Assembly (NCBI RefSeq): GCF_025643335.1
Contig: NZ_CP092489.1
Span: forward strand, 3,916,501 to 3,980,500
Origin: Endozoicomonas sp. Mp262
Lineage (GTDB): Bacteria; Pseudomonadota; Gammaproteobacteria; Pseudomonadales; Endozoicomonadaceae
Direction: 5' to 3'
DNA: 64,000 nt
Positions within the stretch are counted from its first letter, which is position 1; every line of letters begins with the position of its first letter. Of the stretch, positions 3,917-36,185 are shown piece after piece. Made by a program: the position numbers and the translations under genes. The notes beneath the pieces are model-generated. The model was not told where the DNA came from. It ran no database searches and saw only the letters and a program-made list of their open reading frames with translations.

Positions 3917-3997
3917 TCAATCCTTCGGAGGGTAATCGGGGAATCGGTCTTTTAGAAAGTCCGGTAGTTCGGGCCAAGGGGTATCCAGACTAATCAT
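3917..3997 (-). CDS. Small 26-residue protein coupled to the upstream tail gene
   Basis: ATG 3997 overlaps the TGA of the 96-residue gene in an ATGA arrangement, and the frame closes at 3917 just ahead of an intrinsic terminator. The peptide begins MISLDTPWPELPDF and is Pro/Asp-rich with no membrane segment. The start-stop overlap and the terminator immediately after support translation. No function can be assigned; a small fibre-associated or chaperone peptide is possible. Confidence 0.5.
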   Translation of the reverse strand: MISLDTPWPELPDFLKDRFPDYPPKD

Positions 3998-4284
3998 TGC
4001 ATCTTCCTCAATGTTTCCCTGAATTGCAGGGTTTGCTTATACTGCTGCTCAGAAATATCCGTTTTCACGCCCAGCTCGTCCTGCTCTTTATAAGTCTGCA
4101 CAACATCAAAAGTGTCAGACAGCATTCGCTGCCTTTTAGCCTCCTTGCTTTTTTGTAAAGCCGTGGAAGCTTCGCAGGCATCACGGGTTATTGATTCGAT
4201 TTCATCATCATCAAGCCCTAGCTTTTTTAAATACTCCGGCGAGGTGTCTGTATGACTCTCGCCGTCAACGATGTATGAAAACAT
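3994..4284 (-). CDS. Small tail-fibre-associated protein, unknown family
   Basis: A 96-residue, highly charged, mostly helical protein beginning MFSYIVDGESHTDTS. Its first base overlaps the last base of the RT gene, so it is probably cotranslated. Short proteins that open with a brief beta strand and continue in charged helix are common after phage fibre genes (XkdW or fibre-assembly types), but I cannot place it firmly. It follows the DGR rather than interrupting it, and could assist fibre assembly. Confidence 0.6.
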   Translation of the reverse strand: MFSYIVDGESHTDTSPEYLKKLGLDDDEIESITRDACEASTALQKSKEAKRQRMLSDTFDVVQTYKEQDELGVKTDISEQQYKQTLQFRETLRKMQ

Positions 4285-5345
4285 TAACTGATCTCCATTT
4301 TTTTGCTCAGTAGCGCCTTACGCAGACCGTAGCTGTTGCAGTGGCTGGCATGACCTATCCAGCTTTGCAGCTTTCGACCTGCATCCGTTATTGATAACTC
4401 ACCCGTCTTTATCTGTCTTTTATATTTTTTTATTTTTGTTTTGATTCGCTTAATACTGCATTTTCTCAGCAATCTATGAGTTGGATATATTCGATAGCCG
4501 AGAAAATCCAAAGCCCTGCCATTTTTTACAGCAACAGGAAAAACCTGAGTCTTATGATTTGTTTTTAGACGCAAGTAATTCAGCAGGAATCGCTCTATAT
4601 CAGCCCGCCATTGGTGCAACTGTCGCTTATCATGATGAACGACCACAAAATCATCCATATAGCGAATGTACCGCTTTATGCTCAGCGTGTGCTTCGCATA
4701 CCAGTCAAGCTCGTGCAGATAAATGTTTGCACAAAGCTGGCTGGTGAGATTCCCGATAGGGATTCCATTCTCACCAGGGGAGCTATCAATAATTGCTGAA
4801 ATTAATGACAGTGTTTTTTTGCAGCTTATTTTTTGAGAGATCAGCTTTTTGAGCGTCTCTCTGTCAATGCTTGCGAAGTATTTTGATATATCTGCTTTAA
4901 GGGCATAGATTTTCCCACACCTTCTTTGAACGTCTCTTAAAAACCTCTGCGCTCTATCTGCACCTGCATGAGTGCCTTTTCCGACACGGCACGCATAGCT
5001 GTCATAAATAAACCGTTTCTCAAATATTGGCTCTATTGCTGCGACAATAGAATGCTGAACCACTCTGTCACGAAACGGCAATGCTGCAACCAGTCGTTTT
5101 TTTGGCTCATAAACATAAAAATTATGGTATACGCCTGTTTGATACGACCCCCAGAGCAACTCATTTTGAAGCTGTATCAGATTCTCGTCGAGATTAAAGA
5201 AAAATTCAGCTACTTCATGTCGATTTCTTTTTCCTTTTCTGGCTCTGTAAGCCGCTTTATAGAGGTTTTCAAAATCAACAATCTGAGAAAATAAGTCAGA
5301 ACCGGCGCACCGGCCTGACTGTTCAATATTTTGGCATCCAGCCAT
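4284..5345 (-). CDS. DGR reverse transcriptase (Brt-like)
   Basis: A 353-residue reverse transcriptase of the diversity-generating retroelement class. With the start at ATG 5345, residues 149-154 (LKADIS) carry the first catalytic Asp, residues 197-203 read IGNLTSQ (the DGR version of the QGxxxSP motif), and residues 229-232 are YMDD. The C-terminal LDFLGYRIYPTHRLLRK block also matches Brt of Bordetella phage BPP-1. It copies TR RNA into adenine-mutagenised cDNA that replaces the VR. The frame remains open back to a TTG at 5471 inside the TR, but ATG 5345 has an AAGGA motif ten bases upstream and gives the usual family length. Confidence 0.96.
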   Translation of the reverse strand: MAGCQNIEQSGRCAGSDLFSQIVDFENLYKAAYRARKGKRNRHEVAEFFFNLDENLIQLQNELLWGSYQTGVYHNFYVYEPKKRLVAALPFRDRVVQHSIVAAIEPIFEKRFIYDSYACRVGKGTHAGADRAQRFLRDVQRRCGKIYALKADISKYFASIDRETLKKLISQKISCKKTLSLISAIIDSSPGENGIPIGNLTSQLCANIYLHELDWYAKHTLSIKRYIRYMDDFVVVHHDKRQLHQWRADIERFLLNYLRLKTNHKTQVFPVAVKNGRALDFLGYRIYPTHRLLRKCSIKRIKTKIKKYKRQIKTGELSITDAGRKLQSWIGHASHCNSYGLRKALLSKKMEIS

Positions 5346-5414
5346 GTCGAAGACATCCTTTTTACAATGCACTGGATATACAGCCATAGCCGGATAACTT
5401 CTGGCGATTGAAAG

Positions 5415-5532
5415 AGCGGGGCGAAACCCGATATTGCTGTTGGCGTTGGAGCGAGCGTTGTTCAAGTTCAACGCAGCGAGGCCAGCATTCGAGCCGTTGT
5501 TCCAATTGCCGCCACGGAAAGGAAGGCGTTTT
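5415..5532 (-). repeat. DGR template repeat (TR)
   Basis: A segment of about 118 bp between avd and the RT gene that matches the end of the variable-protein gene (5934-6051) with a constant offset of 519 bp. Read on the minus strand, the TR carries AAC or AAT at nine codon positions, eight of which differ in the VR. The last 24 bases, from AGCAATATCGGG to CGCCCCGCT, are identical in both copies despite containing adenines, which fits the initiation-of-mutagenic-homing segment. The 5' edge abuts the TAA of avd. Confidence 0.95.
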
Positions 5533-5872
5533 AATGTCTGCGACGTTCATTTTGCATCCAGCTTCCAATAATACATCCAATTTCATGCAAATGCTTTGAC
5601 CATATTTCGTACTTTTTTATGGGCAAATACTTTAAATCAACAGACAGCCTAAGCAATGTTCGTAAAAATTCGGTATGTATATCCATATCCGCAAGGGTTG
5701 TCTTTTTGTGGTGGCGCTTGCCACACCTGATAACCAGTTTAACCAGCTCCAGCATAGCCTCTCTTATTTCAGCACATAGCGTGTGTCTCTCGTGCTTTGG
5801 ATAATGCCTGAGAGCTGTATAACCATATGCCGTCATATCTTGGCATTTTTGCAATAAAATAAATTCTGACAT
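5531..5872 (-). CDS. avd: DGR accessory variability determinant (Avd-like)
   Basis: A 113-residue basic, all-helical protein between the variable-protein gene and the TR, the same place as avd in BPP-1. The sequence (tyrosine/proline near the first helix, KKTTLADMDIHTEFLRTLLRLS, then KKYEIWSKHLHEIG ending in a GSW motif) fits the Avd/23S-rRNA-intervening-sequence four-helix-bundle family. Avd forms a pentamer that binds the RT and TR RNA and is required for mutagenic homing. The stop codon lies at the TR boundary. Identification combines fold-like pattern, size and position. Confidence 0.9.
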   Translation of the reverse strand: MSEFILLQKCQDMTAYGYTALRHYPKHERHTLCAEIREAMLELVKLVIRCGKRHHKKTTLADMDIHTEFLRTLLRLSVDLKYLPIKKYEIWSKHLHEIGCIIGSWMQNERRRH

Positions 5873-5881
5873 TTAGTAACC

Positions 5882-5897
5882 GCCCGCTCTCGCGGGC
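5882..5897 (-). promoter_or_regulatory. DGR hairpin/cruciform downstream of VR
   Basis: On the minus (coding) strand a six-base-pair GC stem GCCCGC/GCGGGC encloses the tetraloop GAGA. It lies 24 bases after the stop codon of the variable-protein gene and 36 bases past the VR. GC-rich hairpins with GRNA loops just after the VR are known target-recognition elements in BPP-1 and related DGRs, and GAGA fits that pattern. No T tract follows, so a plain terminator is less likely. Confidence 0.7.
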
Positions 5898-5921
5898 TTA
5901 TCAAGCAACAAATAACAAGCA

Positions 5922-7289
5922 TCAAGCAGCAAAAGCGGGGCGAAACCCGATATTGCTGCTGGCGTTGGAGCGAGCGCCGAACAAGCCCAACGCAGCGAGG
6001 CCAGCACCCGAGCCGTGCGCCCAACGGCCGCCACGGAAAGGAAGGCGCTCGCCGTAGTTTCGGATATACATTCGACCCTGAATATCTTTCCCCACAGGCT
6101 CTATAAGCAGGCGTTTCATCAGCTCGTTCGAGACGTAAGACGGGTCTTTTGTGATCGCGTCCCACGTTTGCGAATTGTCCGCATAGTAACCATTATCGCC
6201 TTTTGGCCCTGCATAATTTGTTACTTTGCTATTGATAAATTGAGCGCCCTTGCTACCTTTATCGCTTTCATCGCCCGCAGCAGGGGAGTCAAAGTAGCAA
6301 TCTTGCGCAACCCAGCTCGCCTCCGGCATGGCGAAGTCGTTATCAGGAGTGCAAATTACTCTGCCATCTTGCGTCTTTAGCCCTAGCTGCCACTCCCAAA
6401 CATTGCCGACCAAATCATACACACCCGCATCAGTTTTATCATGCGCCCACGCTGCCGGGCCTGACCCTGTGTTTGTTCTGGCTGCACCCGAACGATCATT
6501 TGCTGCTTTGCCATCACCCCGCCTGCCGAACTCAAAATAGTTTTCGTGCGACCTGCCATATTGCGTATTACCTGTTGGTTGGTAGCCGTTAGCGATACAC
6601 CATAGGCTGACTGCTGCCCATTCGTGAGCAGTCATCAGGTGCCAGCCCGACCCTTTGTCTTCACACGCTTTTTTTGCAGTATCAAAATTTATTGAGGTGC
6701 GAGGATCGACACCGGGCATCGATGCCGCACTACTGCTTGACGCTAAATATTTTCCAATAAATATTTCCGGCAGTGCGTCACCGTCTTTTACAAATGCCGT
6801 AACGTCACCGCTACCCATGACATCAGTCATGCCGATGTCATCGTATGTAAATCGAGGTATGACAACCATCACATTTGCATTGCCCTGAGAGTCATACAGA
6901 ACTGTGTTTTTTCCGCCTGTGGCTGACTCCACTGCGTGGCGGTAGCTGTCTTTGATGTAAGGGGCAACCCAGTCACCACTTATTCTCCCGTTGCCATCTG
7001 CTAGCGGGATTTTGCCAGCGGCAGGGTTTAGCGATGCCGTACCGCCCGTCACTACTGCCGCCGCTGAATCAGCCGACTTTTTAGCATTGGTCTCACTTTC
7101 TTTTGCCTCTGCCGCCTTGGTTGTTGCTGTGGCTGCGTCAGATTTGGCGCTGGCCGCTGATGCTGTAGCAGTCTTCTCTGCCTTATCCAAAGTGGCTTTG
7201 CTTGTCGTCACCTGATTTAACAAGCTGGTCGTTGCAGACGTAAGACCACTGACTTCTTCGACCAGATCGCCCAAAGTTTTATCTGTCAT
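5922..7289 (-). CDS. DGR variable protein: tail fibre with C-terminal C-type-lectin/FGE-type fold
   Basis: A 455-residue protein. Residues 1-80 are an Ala-rich trimeric-type coiled coil as in phage fibres. Residues from about 110 form a formylglycine-generating-enzyme/C-type-lectin domain, with GWHLMTAHEW, GNVWEW and the terminal block from RGGRW to IGFRPAF typical of DGR variable proteins. The VR (5934-6051) encodes the last ~40 residues. Compared with the TR, positions 422, 424, 425, 428, 435, 437, 438 and 444 are changed from Asn to R, A, H, G, G, F, G and S, with 414 also changed. It is probably the receptor-binding tail protein whose specificity is diversified. Confidence 0.94.
   Translation of the reverse strand: MTDKTLGDLVEEVSGLTSATTSLLNQVTTSKATLDKAEKTATASAASAKSDAATATTKAAEAKESETNAKKSADSAAAVVTGGTASLNPAAGKIPLADGNGRISGDWVAPYIKDSYRHAVESATGGKNTVLYDSQGNANVMVVIPRFTYDDIGMTDVMGSGDVTAFVKDGDALPEIFIGKYLASSSSAASMPGVDPRTSINFDTAKKACEDKGSGWHLMTAHEWAAVSLWCIANGYQPTGNTQYGRSHENYFEFGRRGDGKAANDRSGAARTNTGSGPAAWAHDKTDAGVYDLVGNVWEWQLGLKTQDGRVICTPDNDFAMPEASWVAQDCYFDSPAAGDESDKGSKGAQFINSKVTNYAGPKGDNGYYADNSQTWDAITKDPSYVSNELMKRLLIEPVGKDIQGRMYIRNYGERLPFRGGRWAHGSGAGLAALGLFGARSNASSNIGFRPAFAA
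5934..6051 (-). repeat. DGR variable repeat (VR)
   Basis: This is the target copy of the template at 5415-5532, located at the 3' end of the variable-protein gene and ending 10 bases before its stop codon. Within the eight altered Asn codons, 14 template adenines are replaced by C, G or T. Two more changes lie at the 5' edge (AAA to GAG). Only one non-adenine change was found, at base 6018. Confidence 0.95.
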
Positions 7290-7297
7290 AGTGTTTC

Positions 7298-8128
7298 TCA
7301 GTTAAACGCGTGGAATTTGCTGATGATTTCTTGAGTACGGATAAGGTCGGCTGCTACACCCACAATCATTGCGCCAGTTTTGTTTTCTGCGGCTTCTGCG
7401 CTGGCCTGTGCTGTTTCTGCCTTACCTTGAGCGGTTTCCGATGCTGCCTTTGCTGACTCTGCCCCCGCCTGAGCCTGCTGCGCTGTCCGCTCGGATGATT
7501 GCGCCTGTGCCTGAGCTTGCTGTGCTGTTCTCTGGGCTGACTCTGCACCAGACTGGGCTGTAACTGCTGCTGACTCTGCGGCCTCTGCTGATGCCTGCGC
7601 CTGCTCTGATTTACCCTGAGCTGCTTCTGATGCTGCCTGAGCCTGCGCCGCTGCCTGCTGTGATGCCTGAGCCTGACTCTGTGCTGCCTCTGCCTTACCC
7701 TGAGCCAGCTCTGCTGCTGCCTGCCCTGCTTCGGCCTTCCCCTGAGCCGCCTTTGCTCCCTTCTCGGCTGTCTCTGCTTTACCCTGTGCGACCAGTGCCG
7801 CCTGTTTTGCTGCCTCAGACTTAGCCTGAGCTGATTCTGAGGCTTTTTGTGCTGTGACTGACTGAGTAGCTGCACTCTGAGCTATGCCAGCCTGCCGCTC
7901 TGCTTTATCGCTCTGAGTCTTTGCAAAAGCGTTTGCTGACTTAATATCAGTAATAGTGGGGTCGATCTTCGCCCACATTTGCCTCTGCACGTTGCGAGTG
8001 CTGGGGATAGTGCCGCCTTCCACCTGTATTACTGCATGATCATCACCATCCAGTACCGCTTTGTGTTTGCTGGCTGCCTGCTCTGCGTCAGTGGCCGCCT
8101 GTTCGAGCCGTTGTGATACCGTACTCAT
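7298..8128 (-). CDS. Alanine/glutamine-rich coiled-coil tail fibre protein
   Basis: A 276-residue protein with a short globular head, then about 170 residues of Ala/Gln/Glu coiled coil containing repeated AQGKAE-type hexapeptides (five near copies), and a short C-terminal segment ending KFHAFN. The composition suits the elongated trimeric shaft of a tail fibre. It lies immediately upstream of the variable protein, which also starts with an Ala-rich coil, so the two could form a two-part fibre. The repetitive DNA may vary in length between strains. Confidence 0.7.
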   Translation of the reverse strand: MSTVSQRLEQAATDAEQAASKHKAVLDGDDHAVIQVEGGTIPSTRNVQRQMWAKIDPTITDIKSANAFAKTQSDKAERQAGIAQSAATQSVTAQKASESAQAKSEAAKQAALVAQGKAETAEKGAKAAQGKAEAGQAAAELAQGKAEAAQSQAQASQQAAAQAQAASEAAQGKSEQAQASAEAAESAAVTAQSGAESAQRTAQQAQAQAQSSERTAQQAQAGAESAKAASETAQGKAETAQASAEAAENKTGAMIVGVAADLIRTQEIISKFHAFN

Positions 8129-34469: not shown

Positions 34470-34667
34470 ATGCCTAAATGGGTTAGACTCAGGGTTTATC
34501 TGGAGCAGACAGGCGAATCCAGAACAGCAGTAAAAAATAAAATATCTGCCTGCGTGTATCGCGAGAGAATCCATTTTAGATATGATCCATATTGCAAAAA
34601 ATCAATATGGATGAACATGGAGGCTATTGAAAAGTGGCTAGACAACTCACCACCCCACGCGGCGTGA
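34470..34667 (+). CDS. Excisionase-like protein
   Basis: A 65-residue protein beginning MPKWVRLRVYLEQTGESRTAVKNKISACVYRERIHFRYDP and ending with IWMNMEAIEKWLDNS, the winged-helix layout of Xis-like and HTH_17 excisionases. An upstream ATG at 34465 closes after three codons, so 34470 is the start. It overlaps the integrase by 34 bases. Expected to bend att DNA and direct excision. Confidence 0.82.
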   Translation: MPKWVRLRVYLEQTGESRTAVKNKISACVYRERIHFRYDPYCKKSIWMNMEAIEKWLDNSPPHAA

Positions 34668-35815
34668 GATTGAAGGGGACGGGAGTACAAATAAATTTCT
34701 CGTGGCTGGGAAAAACTCGATTTGTCACCGTCCCCGGACTACCGCAAACCGCGAAAGGGGTTAAGCAAGCAGCAGCGCTGAGAGAGATTATAAAGCGCGA
34801 AATGGAGTTAGGCCAGTTTCGCTGGTCTAATCATTTTCCTGAACATAAATTAGCAAAAGCTGAGACTCCCGCACCATCCGGCCTGACTGTTAAATGCCTG
34901 CTTGAGCGCTGGCTAAAAAAACAGGAGGGCATTTTATCCCCGCGTTACTACCGCAACTCAACCTACCGCGTTAACTCAATTCTTATGCCTAAATTCGGCC
35001 ATATTCCTATATCCATGCTAACACCCGGTCATGTGAGAGACTGGGCAGACGAGCTTGATATAGCCCGAAAAACGATAGCAAACTATCTGGCTCCGCTAAG
35101 GTCTGCCATTCGTGAAGCTATACGAGACAGGCTTATCAACAAAAACCCTCTCGATGGGCTTGTGCTGCCGAAAGAAAAGGTTGAGATAACAAAACGGGTC
35201 GAGGATCGCCGGGATGATGTGAACCCATACACCCGAGGAGAGGTGGATCGGGTTTTATCAGGATGCGAACATTTGTCGGAGAAAAACCTGTTTCAGTTTG
35301 CTGTCTGGTCAGGCGTTCGCCCTGGCGAGCTAATAGCGCTCGAATGGCAGCATGTGGACTTAAAAAAAGGAATGGCAAGAATATGTCAGGCCGTCTCCGA
35401 CAGAACCATGAGCGACATCAAGACGAAAGCAAAGGGTCGTCGTGAAATCATGCTGTTACCCGATGCTCTGGCAGCTCTGAGACAACAGAGAGCTGTTAGC
35501 CGGCTATTACCGCATGGCAGGGTGTTTGTTAATCGCGAGAGGCAGCCCTTTGCAGACTATAACGCTGTTTACTGGTGCTGGCATTATGCTTGCAAGAGAG
35601 TCGGAGTTACTAATAGAGGAATCGGTCAGACTCGACACACGTTTGCGAGCTGGATGCTTGAGGCTGGCGAGTCTGAAATGTGGGTTTCGAAAATGCTGGG
35701 TCACACAACTGTCGAGATGGTCAGAAAGCATTACCAAAAATTTGTTAAAGATGACTCGGTTACAGGGTACACCCCGAAAAATGATTGGAGTCTCAAAAGT
35801 ACAAAACAGGGGTAA
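34634..35815 (+). CDS. Tyrosine-recombinase integrase
   Basis: A 393-residue phage integrase. The N-terminal arm-binding domain contains GVRLKGTGVQINFSWLGKTRF (DUF3596-like); the core-binding domain follows, and the catalytic domain has WSGVRPGELIALEW (Arg), TRHTFASWMLEAG (His/Arg box) and MVRKHYQKFVKD (nucleophilic Tyr). It ends ~100 bases before chromosomal sequence, so att is immediately downstream. Confidence 0.96.
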   Translation: MARQLTTPRGVRLKGTGVQINFSWLGKTRFVTVPGLPQTAKGVKQAAALREIIKREMELGQFRWSNHFPEHKLAKAETPAPSGLTVKCLLERWLKKQEGILSPRYYRNSTYRVNSILMPKFGHIPISMLTPGHVRDWADELDIARKTIANYLAPLRSAIREAIRDRLINKNPLDGLVLPKEKVEITKRVEDRRDDVNPYTRGEVDRVLSGCEHLSEKNLFQFAVWSGVRPGELIALEWQHVDLKKGMARICQAVSDRTMSDIKTKAKGRREIMLLPDALAALRQQRAVSRLLPHGRVFVNRERQPFADYNAVYWCWHYACKRVGVTNRGIGQTRHTFASWMLEAGESEMWVSKMLGHTTVEMVRKHYQKFVKDDSVTGYTPKNDWSLKSTKQG

Positions 35816-36185
35816 AAACTTGCCCAAAACTTGCCCCGAAGCCAATGGTAAAAATAAAAAGCTATAAAAAACAACAGGTTAGGTCATAATATACAGACCA
35901 CTCCTAAATGGTCTTAGCCCGGTTTCGCTCCCCCCAGTGATCCGGGTTTCTTTTTGTCTGAAAGAAAGCTACAGCCTTTTAAAATCAAGAGTTTTGATAT
36001 TACCCACTATCCATCTTTACTTTCATAAACCGGCTATGATTGGATAAATATAAAATTTTGCTACTTCTCATTCTTTTTTGATCAATGAAGCATCAAGGCA
36101 TCCACGGCTTTGTTGATATAGATCAAAAATTACAGCCTCATATTAAAAATAGAATCACAGTCTTCCGGAAGAGGAGATAATAAAA
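35816..36185 (+). other. Prophage right end / attR region, about 370 bases without a gene
   Basis: Contains a six-pair hairpin AGACCA/TGGTCT (35895-35914) and a hairpin with T tract (35918-35955). AT-rich chromosomal-type sequence follows. No tRNA is recognisable, so the integration target cannot be named. The core repeat should lie here but needs the left end for recognition. Confidence 0.5.
35918..35955 (+). terminator. Hairpin terminator downstream of integrase
   Basis: Short stem CCCGG/CCGGG separated by ~20 bases and followed by TTTCTTTTT; about 100 bases after the integrase stop. It may belong to the phage, or be a host terminator reused as the attachment site. Confidence 0.5.

Follow-up and report, generated by a model that had tools for sequence, protein, structure and literature searches.

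A putatively complete diversity-generating retroelement in an apparently intact Endozoicomonas prophage

Does a prophage of Endozoicomonas sp. Mp262, lying in a 64,000-nucleotide stretch of contig NZ_CP092489.1 (positions 3,916,501 to 3,980,500; hereafter the window), carry a complete diversity-generating retroelement (DGR), and could this element still vary a phage tail protein? The original prediction, made from the letters alone, proposed a full set of DGR parts on a single strand and in the order known from phage BPP-1 (mtd-avd-TR-brt). All parts were confirmed: between 4284 and 7289, on the minus strand, the gene of a variable protein (VP) that ends in a variable repeat (VR) is followed by avd, a template repeat (TR) and a reverse transcriptase (RT) gene, and this gene order matches that of BPP-1. 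We estimate at about 0.9 the probability that they form a complete DGR of an apparently intact prophage, a reading that rests on parts recognized by sequence and on an adenine-restricted difference between TR and VR. The parts are listed below; published work is cited by PMC number.

5922-7289, minus strand: VP gene, 455 amino acids (PDB, Pfam, PHROG, AlphaFold2, Foldseek)
5931-6047, minus strand: VR, codons 415-453 of the VP gene (TR/VR comparison, reading frame)
5882-5897, minus strand: hairpin 3' of VR, GCCCGC-GAGA-GCGGGC, with a GRNA loop (hairpin search; consensus of PMC3240598)
5531-5872, minus strand: avd, accessory variability determinant, 113 amino acids (Pfam bAvd, PHROG 3206)
5412-5528, minus strand: TR (TR/VR comparison)
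5332-5405, minus strand: putative spacer RNA between TR and RT (P1 hairpin 5405-5369 and small helix P2 5344-5332)
4284-5345, minus strand: RT gene, likely start ATG 5345 (Pfam, PHROG, PDB match, alignment with BPP-1)

The TR/VR pair proved as clear as had been claimed. The two repeats are 86% identical over 117 nt; TR contains 22 adenines, and these account for 14 of the 16 mismatches (hypergeometric chance 7e-11). VR is the in-frame 3' end of the VP gene and lies within the predicted C-type-lectin fold. The 22 template adenines are spread over 12 codons, ten of them AAY, and a stop is unreachable by mutation in all; the number of protein variants that can be reached through these adenines has an upper bound of about 9e12. 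The final 20 nt of the repeat are free of adenines, which fits the end formed by the initiation of mutagenic homing sequences (IMH and IMH*) in BPP-1. The hairpin, 33 nt 3' of VR, consists of a 6-bp stem and a GAGA loop, and post-VR hairpins with a GRNA loop, a stem of 7-10 bp and a distance of 4-34 bp have been reported by Guo et al. 2011 (PMC3240598). When a perfect stem of at least 5 bp within 60 nt was required, a GRNA hairpin was detected at 51 of 112 loci (leaving 61 without one under this rule) and in none of 112 shuffled stretches. A tally of adenine bias over 101 loci gave 1265 of 1356 mismatches at adenines; it was excluded from the evidence as circular, because pairs were kept only if at least 65% of their mismatches were at adenines (113 of 122 RT loci).

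The proteins expected of a DGR are encoded around these repeats. RT matches Pfam RVT_1 (E 4e-19) and PHROG 1423, reverse transcriptase (E 3e-143), and its nearest solved chain is 8ub7, 'Reverse transcriptase' (E 1e-63), which we take to be the BPP-1 DGR enzyme. The RTs of the DGR group carry the motifs (I/V/L)GxxxSQ and YxDD. Both predicted motifs, IGNLTSQ and YMDD, are present and intact in the alignment with BPP-1 Brt. Avd, an accessory protein found in many DGRs but not in all, matches Pfam bAvd (E 4e-31) and PHROG 3206, 'Avd protein of DGR' (E 7e-36). VP scores 24.7 bits against Pfam FGE-sulfatase (cut-off 23.3), and its residues 50-454 match PHROG 2889, of function unknown (E 5e-127). Its nearest solved relative by sequence is 5vf4 (E 2e-62), which is TaqVP, the DGR variable protein of Thermus aquaticus (PMC6328139). 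An AlphaFold2 model of VP built from 40 sequences (mean pLDDT 89.9) has a single long helix at residues 6-79, a poor stretch at 77-93 and a compact domain thereafter. Foldseek with this model again returned 5vf4 first (E 8e-40, TM-score 0.71/0.85, 38% identity), with far weaker matches (TM-score below 0.5) to PvdO, the Treponema variable protein 2y3c (2e-4) and Mtd 1yu2 (1e-3). Judged by homology to 5vf4 and by predicted fold, VP is an N-terminal helical stalk (about residues 1-109) followed by a C-terminal C-type-lectin/FGE-type domain, the latter in agreement with the original prediction.

If the element works as in BPP-1, a complex of RT and Avd would copy the TR RNA from a primer site within the spacer RNA and insert random bases opposite template adenines. 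The cDNA would then replace VR at the 3' end of the VP gene, at a site marked by the adenine-free repeat end and the hairpin, and the ten AAY codons of the lectin domain would be varied without creating stops, altering the surface structure bound by the phage tail. For priming, retrohoming, the role of the hairpin and receptor binding we infer this course from BPP-1.

Related genomes gave indirect evidence of mutagenic retrohoming. Two loci from metagenome-assembled genomes (MAGs) of Endozoicomonas, L015 (MAG HY_Ok) and L122 (MAG Pac_F2a), are 94.7% identical over 3390 nt. Their TRs are identical (0/117 differences) and their VRs differ at 15 of 117 positions, 14 of which correspond to TR adenines (chance 1e-10). 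Elsewhere the two loci differ at 72 of 1233 positions in VP before VR, 3 of 412 in the avd stretch, 74 of 1137 from the end of TR to the end of RT, and 13 of 358 after RT. This shows that in these relatives, as distinct from the window strain, VR has changed at adenines since L015 and L122 diverged. Adenine-restricted variation in VR but not in TR, which the original prediction had named as support for activity, is thus seen in related genomes. Mismatches within single loci follow the same pattern, with 12 of 13 at adenines in L015, 14 of 16 in L122 and 13 of 13 in L124, another Pac_F2a locus. The hairpin stem is 7 bp long in L015, L122 and L152 (phage VP58.5) and 6 bp in L124; in L015, L122 and L124 the stem sequences differ from that of the window, and the loops are GGTA, GGTA and GATA, respectively. 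We also observed that the avd-TR block (L015 2468-2996) has 3 differences in 529 nt between L015 and L122, with 5.8% in VP before it and 6.5% in RT after it; recombination or strong constraint may account for this similarity.

Because the spacer of BPP-1 folds and recruits bRT-Avd (PMC12875486), a structured RNA was expected between TR and RT here as well. The TR-RT spacers of the closer relatives have in common a motif around GCCAGAA, a hairpin, CCAGTGC and AAAAGGA. RNAalifold was run on 17 loci, whose spacer rows were chosen by eye among the 21 closest of 55 candidate loci, and proposed 11 pairs, nine of them with changes on both sides. In this consensus 91.4% of cells were paired, a figure that leans towards the structure derived from the same 17 rows, versus 70.1% with the 3' letters shuffled and at most 51% with the partner slid by 1-3 columns. 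Restoring four loci omitted for their longer second hairpin (L073, L022, L024 and L023) brought the paired cells to 92.6%, against 67.5% after shuffling and no more than 52% after sliding, and 10 of the 11 pairs then had changes on both sides. A 35-row alignment (A4) was poor downstream and was left uncounted. All 11 consensus pairs are standard in the window's own spacer, where the P2 helix runs into the likely RT start. Neither the window nor the surroundings of attL gave an above-threshold match to any Rfam family. Overall the spacer fits a structured RNA with a covariation-supported consensus.

Could the repeats be nothing but an ordinary duplication of a gene fragment that has drifted? 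Two of the 16 mismatches, a C to G and a C to T, are not at adenines and would agree with drift, but the concentration of the other 14 at adenines, the same bias in three related loci and the fact that L015 and L122 differ in VR and not in TR make this virtually untenable. A more serious alternative is that the cassette is intact and no longer working, with VR frozen at a current variant that binds well. Such losses occur among relatives. Endozoicomonas sp. YOMI1 (locus L014) keeps VP, VR, the hairpin and a small gene encoding 96 amino acids that follows the cassette in the window, while avd, TR and RT are gone from the locus, with an inverted 62-bp remnant of the RT end in their place; its genome has no RT match at 1e-20, and Avd was sought solely in the 20 kb of L014. 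The YOMI1 VR differs from the L015 TR at 18 positions, 11 at adenines, as expected if the lineages also drifted. The record of Vibrio lentus phage 1.137.O, which covers part of its genome, has VP directly followed by the 96-amino-acid gene; six Vibrio records match RT, and this phage is not one of them. The RT of the ACA prophage copy is also frameshifted (PMC10612066). Against a frozen VR, the avd, TR, RT motifs, hairpin and spacer consensus of the window are all intact, with no frameshift or stop seen, and we regard this alternative as conceivable, if rather doubtful. Finally, the diversified lectin might also serve the lysogen or its association with an animal, perhaps by being displayed or released. 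The host family contains Endozoicomonas, and the authors who described ACA found the antireceptor, in its prophage variety, at high spectrum counts, which puzzled them (PMC10612066). The VP gene, however, lies in a phage tail operon, between the tape measure and minor tail genes, and its stalk is common to a fibre of another prophage, so we consider this role quite improbable.

Several points weigh against the preferred reading of a complete DGR that diversifies a tail protein. Beside the two mismatches outside adenines, the hairpin stem of 6 bp is one pair below the published 7-10 bp, the loop and the distance being within the published values. The minimum-energy fold of the window spacer alone gives other pairings than the consensus helices. 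The position of VP on the tail is one that we infer from neighbouring genes, and as to activity the DGR of the window prophage can be called apparently intact, not more firmly. The original prediction held that active switching of adsorption specificity was strongly suggested. This wording goes beyond the evidence: the VR of the window has clearly been diversified from its TR, and two close relatives show adenine-restricted VR change since their divergence.

The start of RT departs from what had been listed. The predicted RT is present, with a listed start at a TTG inside TR, and the likelier start is the ATG at 5345. The RT frame coincides with the VR reading frame across TR and is open throughout TR; a TGA closes it 18 nt before TR, and between this stop and TR the frame contains no ATG, GTG or TTG. 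The candidates are TTG 5471 and TTG 5465, both inside TR, ATG 5387, GTG 5372 and ATG 5345, the latter with an AAGGA in front of it. RT likely begins there, after TR; a start inside TR (TTG 5471 or 5465) is possible. In VP58.5 (L152) and in two viral contigs, L019 and L020, the stretch that runs from 40 nt before TR as far as the catalytic domain has a single listed start, an ATG 13-14 nt 5' of TR. ACA1, ARM81mr and L021 have an ATG 9-16 nt 5' of TR as well as later starts, of which one, in ARM81mr, is an ATG. The only RT-frame ATG before the catalytic domain of VP58.5 and ACA1 lies 5' of TR, whereas in the window the TGA blocks this arrangement: an RT extension cannot begin upstream of TR, and the whole-TR read-through of the VP58.5 and ACA1 modules is absent. 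TR lies wholly within the RT open frame and in the VR frame at 15 of 101 loci with distinct TRs, nine of them within the 30 closest. We considered a TR-encoded RT extension as a novelty and dropped it, since TR is already stated to be translated as an N-terminal extension of RT in ACA1 (PMC10612066).

Across relatives, homology in the stalk and homology in the variable domain part ways, so that the two behave like modules of their own. A second fibre gene of the same chromosome, at 4163037, opens with a stretch 68% identical to VP residues 1-109. Of the 25 phage matches to VP that were listed (from 54 records in all), 24 begin at residue 106-128. Between VP and its homologues in HY_Ok and YOMI1, 44 of 107-108 stalk residues are identical, against 244-247 of 344-345 in the rest of the protein. 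The second fibre gene belongs to another prophage region (L016, contig 4150001-4170000), in which the stalk match spans 4163037-4163363, the C-terminal part is unrelated, and nearby DUF1833 and NlpC genes are 71% and 68% identical to those of the window prophage; within the 20 kb searched it has no match to Avd, RT or the small gene. A search of the genome for further targets, with TR as DNA and VP as protein at E 1e-3, yielded VR, TR and this one stalk-only paralogue, and no further VR. VP relatives are also encoded in 24 Klebsiella phage records. As a tentative idea, which we would not bet on, the lectin domain, avd, TR, RT and the 96-amino-acid gene may form a host-range cassette that is plugged onto contractile and non-contractile stalks, the retroelement being excised once a good variant is reached. 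If so, the window prophage would be at the diversifying stage, YOMI1 and the Vibrio lentus phages would be frozen, and the second prophage region would carry the same stalk with an unrelated fixed tip.

By sequence comparison, the closest systems are the DGR modules of the Vibrio phages VP58.5 (genus Vhmlvirus) and VHML and of the Pseudoalteromonas phage ACA1 (with ACA2). VP58.5, VHML (compared by its VP, RT and 96-amino-acid gene matches) and ACA1 share 48-51% identity with VP over residues 108-455 and 52-57% with RT, and have the 96-amino-acid gene after RT; VP58.5 and ACA1 also resemble the window in avd, TR, the VR hairpin and the spacer motif. They differ in having contractile-tail genes (sheath, baseplate) and an unlike stalk, the VP match starting at about residue 110. 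Bordetella phage BPP-1 shares the gene order, adenine mutagenesis, the GRNA hairpin, Avd and an RT 38% identical, but its Mtd is a weak fold-level match and its TR, taken in the frame of VR, is out of frame with RT. TaqVP (381 residues) has the same variable-domain fold but no stalk, aligning from its own residue 9 to VP residue 112. Loci of HY_Ok (L015/L123) and Pac_F2a (L122, L124) have VP 63-65% and RT 67-70% identical and also avd, TR and the 96-amino-acid gene, but their stalks have diverged further (in HY_Ok, 44 of 107 residues agree within 1-110 and 244 of 345 beyond; the L124 match starts at residue 114) and their VR residues are unlike those of the window. The ACA1 module has been discussed in print (PMC10612066), and the degree of novelty implied by the original prediction is not justified.

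Within the bacterial family, an RT match at 1e-20 was found in 5 of 37 genomes, the window genome included. The sole close one, in G031, is 70% identical; those of G022 and G019 are 42% and 38% identical. For VP, matches in genome contigs came from a scan with an alignment, the single sequence having returned nothing. By eye, avd-like and NWNN-rich, template-like frames stand beside RT at L157 803-1433 (G022) and L158 1280-1525 (G019), which thus appear to be DGRs of another, more distant kind. G027, of the Endozoicomonadaceae, has 28 RT matches of about 30% identity, mostly of equal score and length, which have the look of a retroelement or intron that has multiplied.

Endozoicomonas and its relatives are common symbionts of marine animals, and to our knowledge little is known of their phages. 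We regard the locus as a new but typical DGR instance, a module like those of VP58.5/VHML and ACA1 in an Endozoicomonadaceae prophage with a seemingly siphovirus-like tail; the mechanism itself was already known. A literature search for the full term, with hyphen or space, in the papers proper found none that joins 'diversity-generating retroelement' and Endozoicomonas; the locus may still be listed in a catalogue such as PMC8144416. The cassette, carried by an integrated prophage in a genome that is nearly complete (2 contigs), offers a defined VR for measuring how often receptor change occurs in symbiont populations. Its intact, diverged and deleted relatives would allow DGR gain and loss to be studied within one bacterial family.

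Three further features complete the description of the region:

3994-4284, minus strand: small conserved gene 3' of RT, 96 amino acids (homologues in relatives; weak match to PHROG 8716)
7298-8128, minus strand: gene just 5' of VP, 276 amino acids (homologue in the second prophage region)
35899-35963, no strand: attR, 65-bp perfect repeat of attL (contig 3910873)

The 96-amino-acid gene has partial homologues (33-53% of its length) after RT in VHML, VP58.5 and ACA1, a partial one directly 3' of the RT-less VP in Vibrio lentus phages, and a full-position one in YOMI1. It accompanies VP and not RT, because YOMI1 and phage 1.137.O keep VP and this gene without RT between them. The PHROG 8716 match, to a tail fiber, has an E value of 5e-4, and the product is probably a tail-fibre partner or chaperone. 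In the second prophage region a 41% identical homologue of the 276-amino-acid gene lies upstream of the paralogous fibre gene. The window copy consists mostly of 21/42-nt repeats and encodes a product rich in Ala and Gln, probably a coiled coil.

The prophage is about 41.6 kb long and bounded by the 65-bp perfect repeat, attR adjoining an integrase gene (34634-35815); no tRNA was found at the attachment site. PHROG scanning of 40 of its proteins, with some small open reading frames (ORFs) outside the scan, named a terminase, portal, protease, capsid, tape measure, tail chaperone, repressor, Erf, anti-repressor and integrase. No tail sheath match occurred among these 40 proteins, and the sole baseplate name was a weak 'baseplate spike' match (5e-4) of a long tail-tip gene that has stronger tail-fibre matches beside it, so that a siphovirus-like tail is suggested. 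That a complete DGR acts on a prophage tail protein, as the original prediction held, is well supported. A candidate second DGR RT nearby, a match at contig 3902495 with 32% identity, was rejected as group II intron-type by eye. That RT (L012 5638-7338; contig 3902138-3903838) has an HNH-like end and lies about 17 kb from the DGR, flanked by two similar ORF sets that we presume to be IS66-like.

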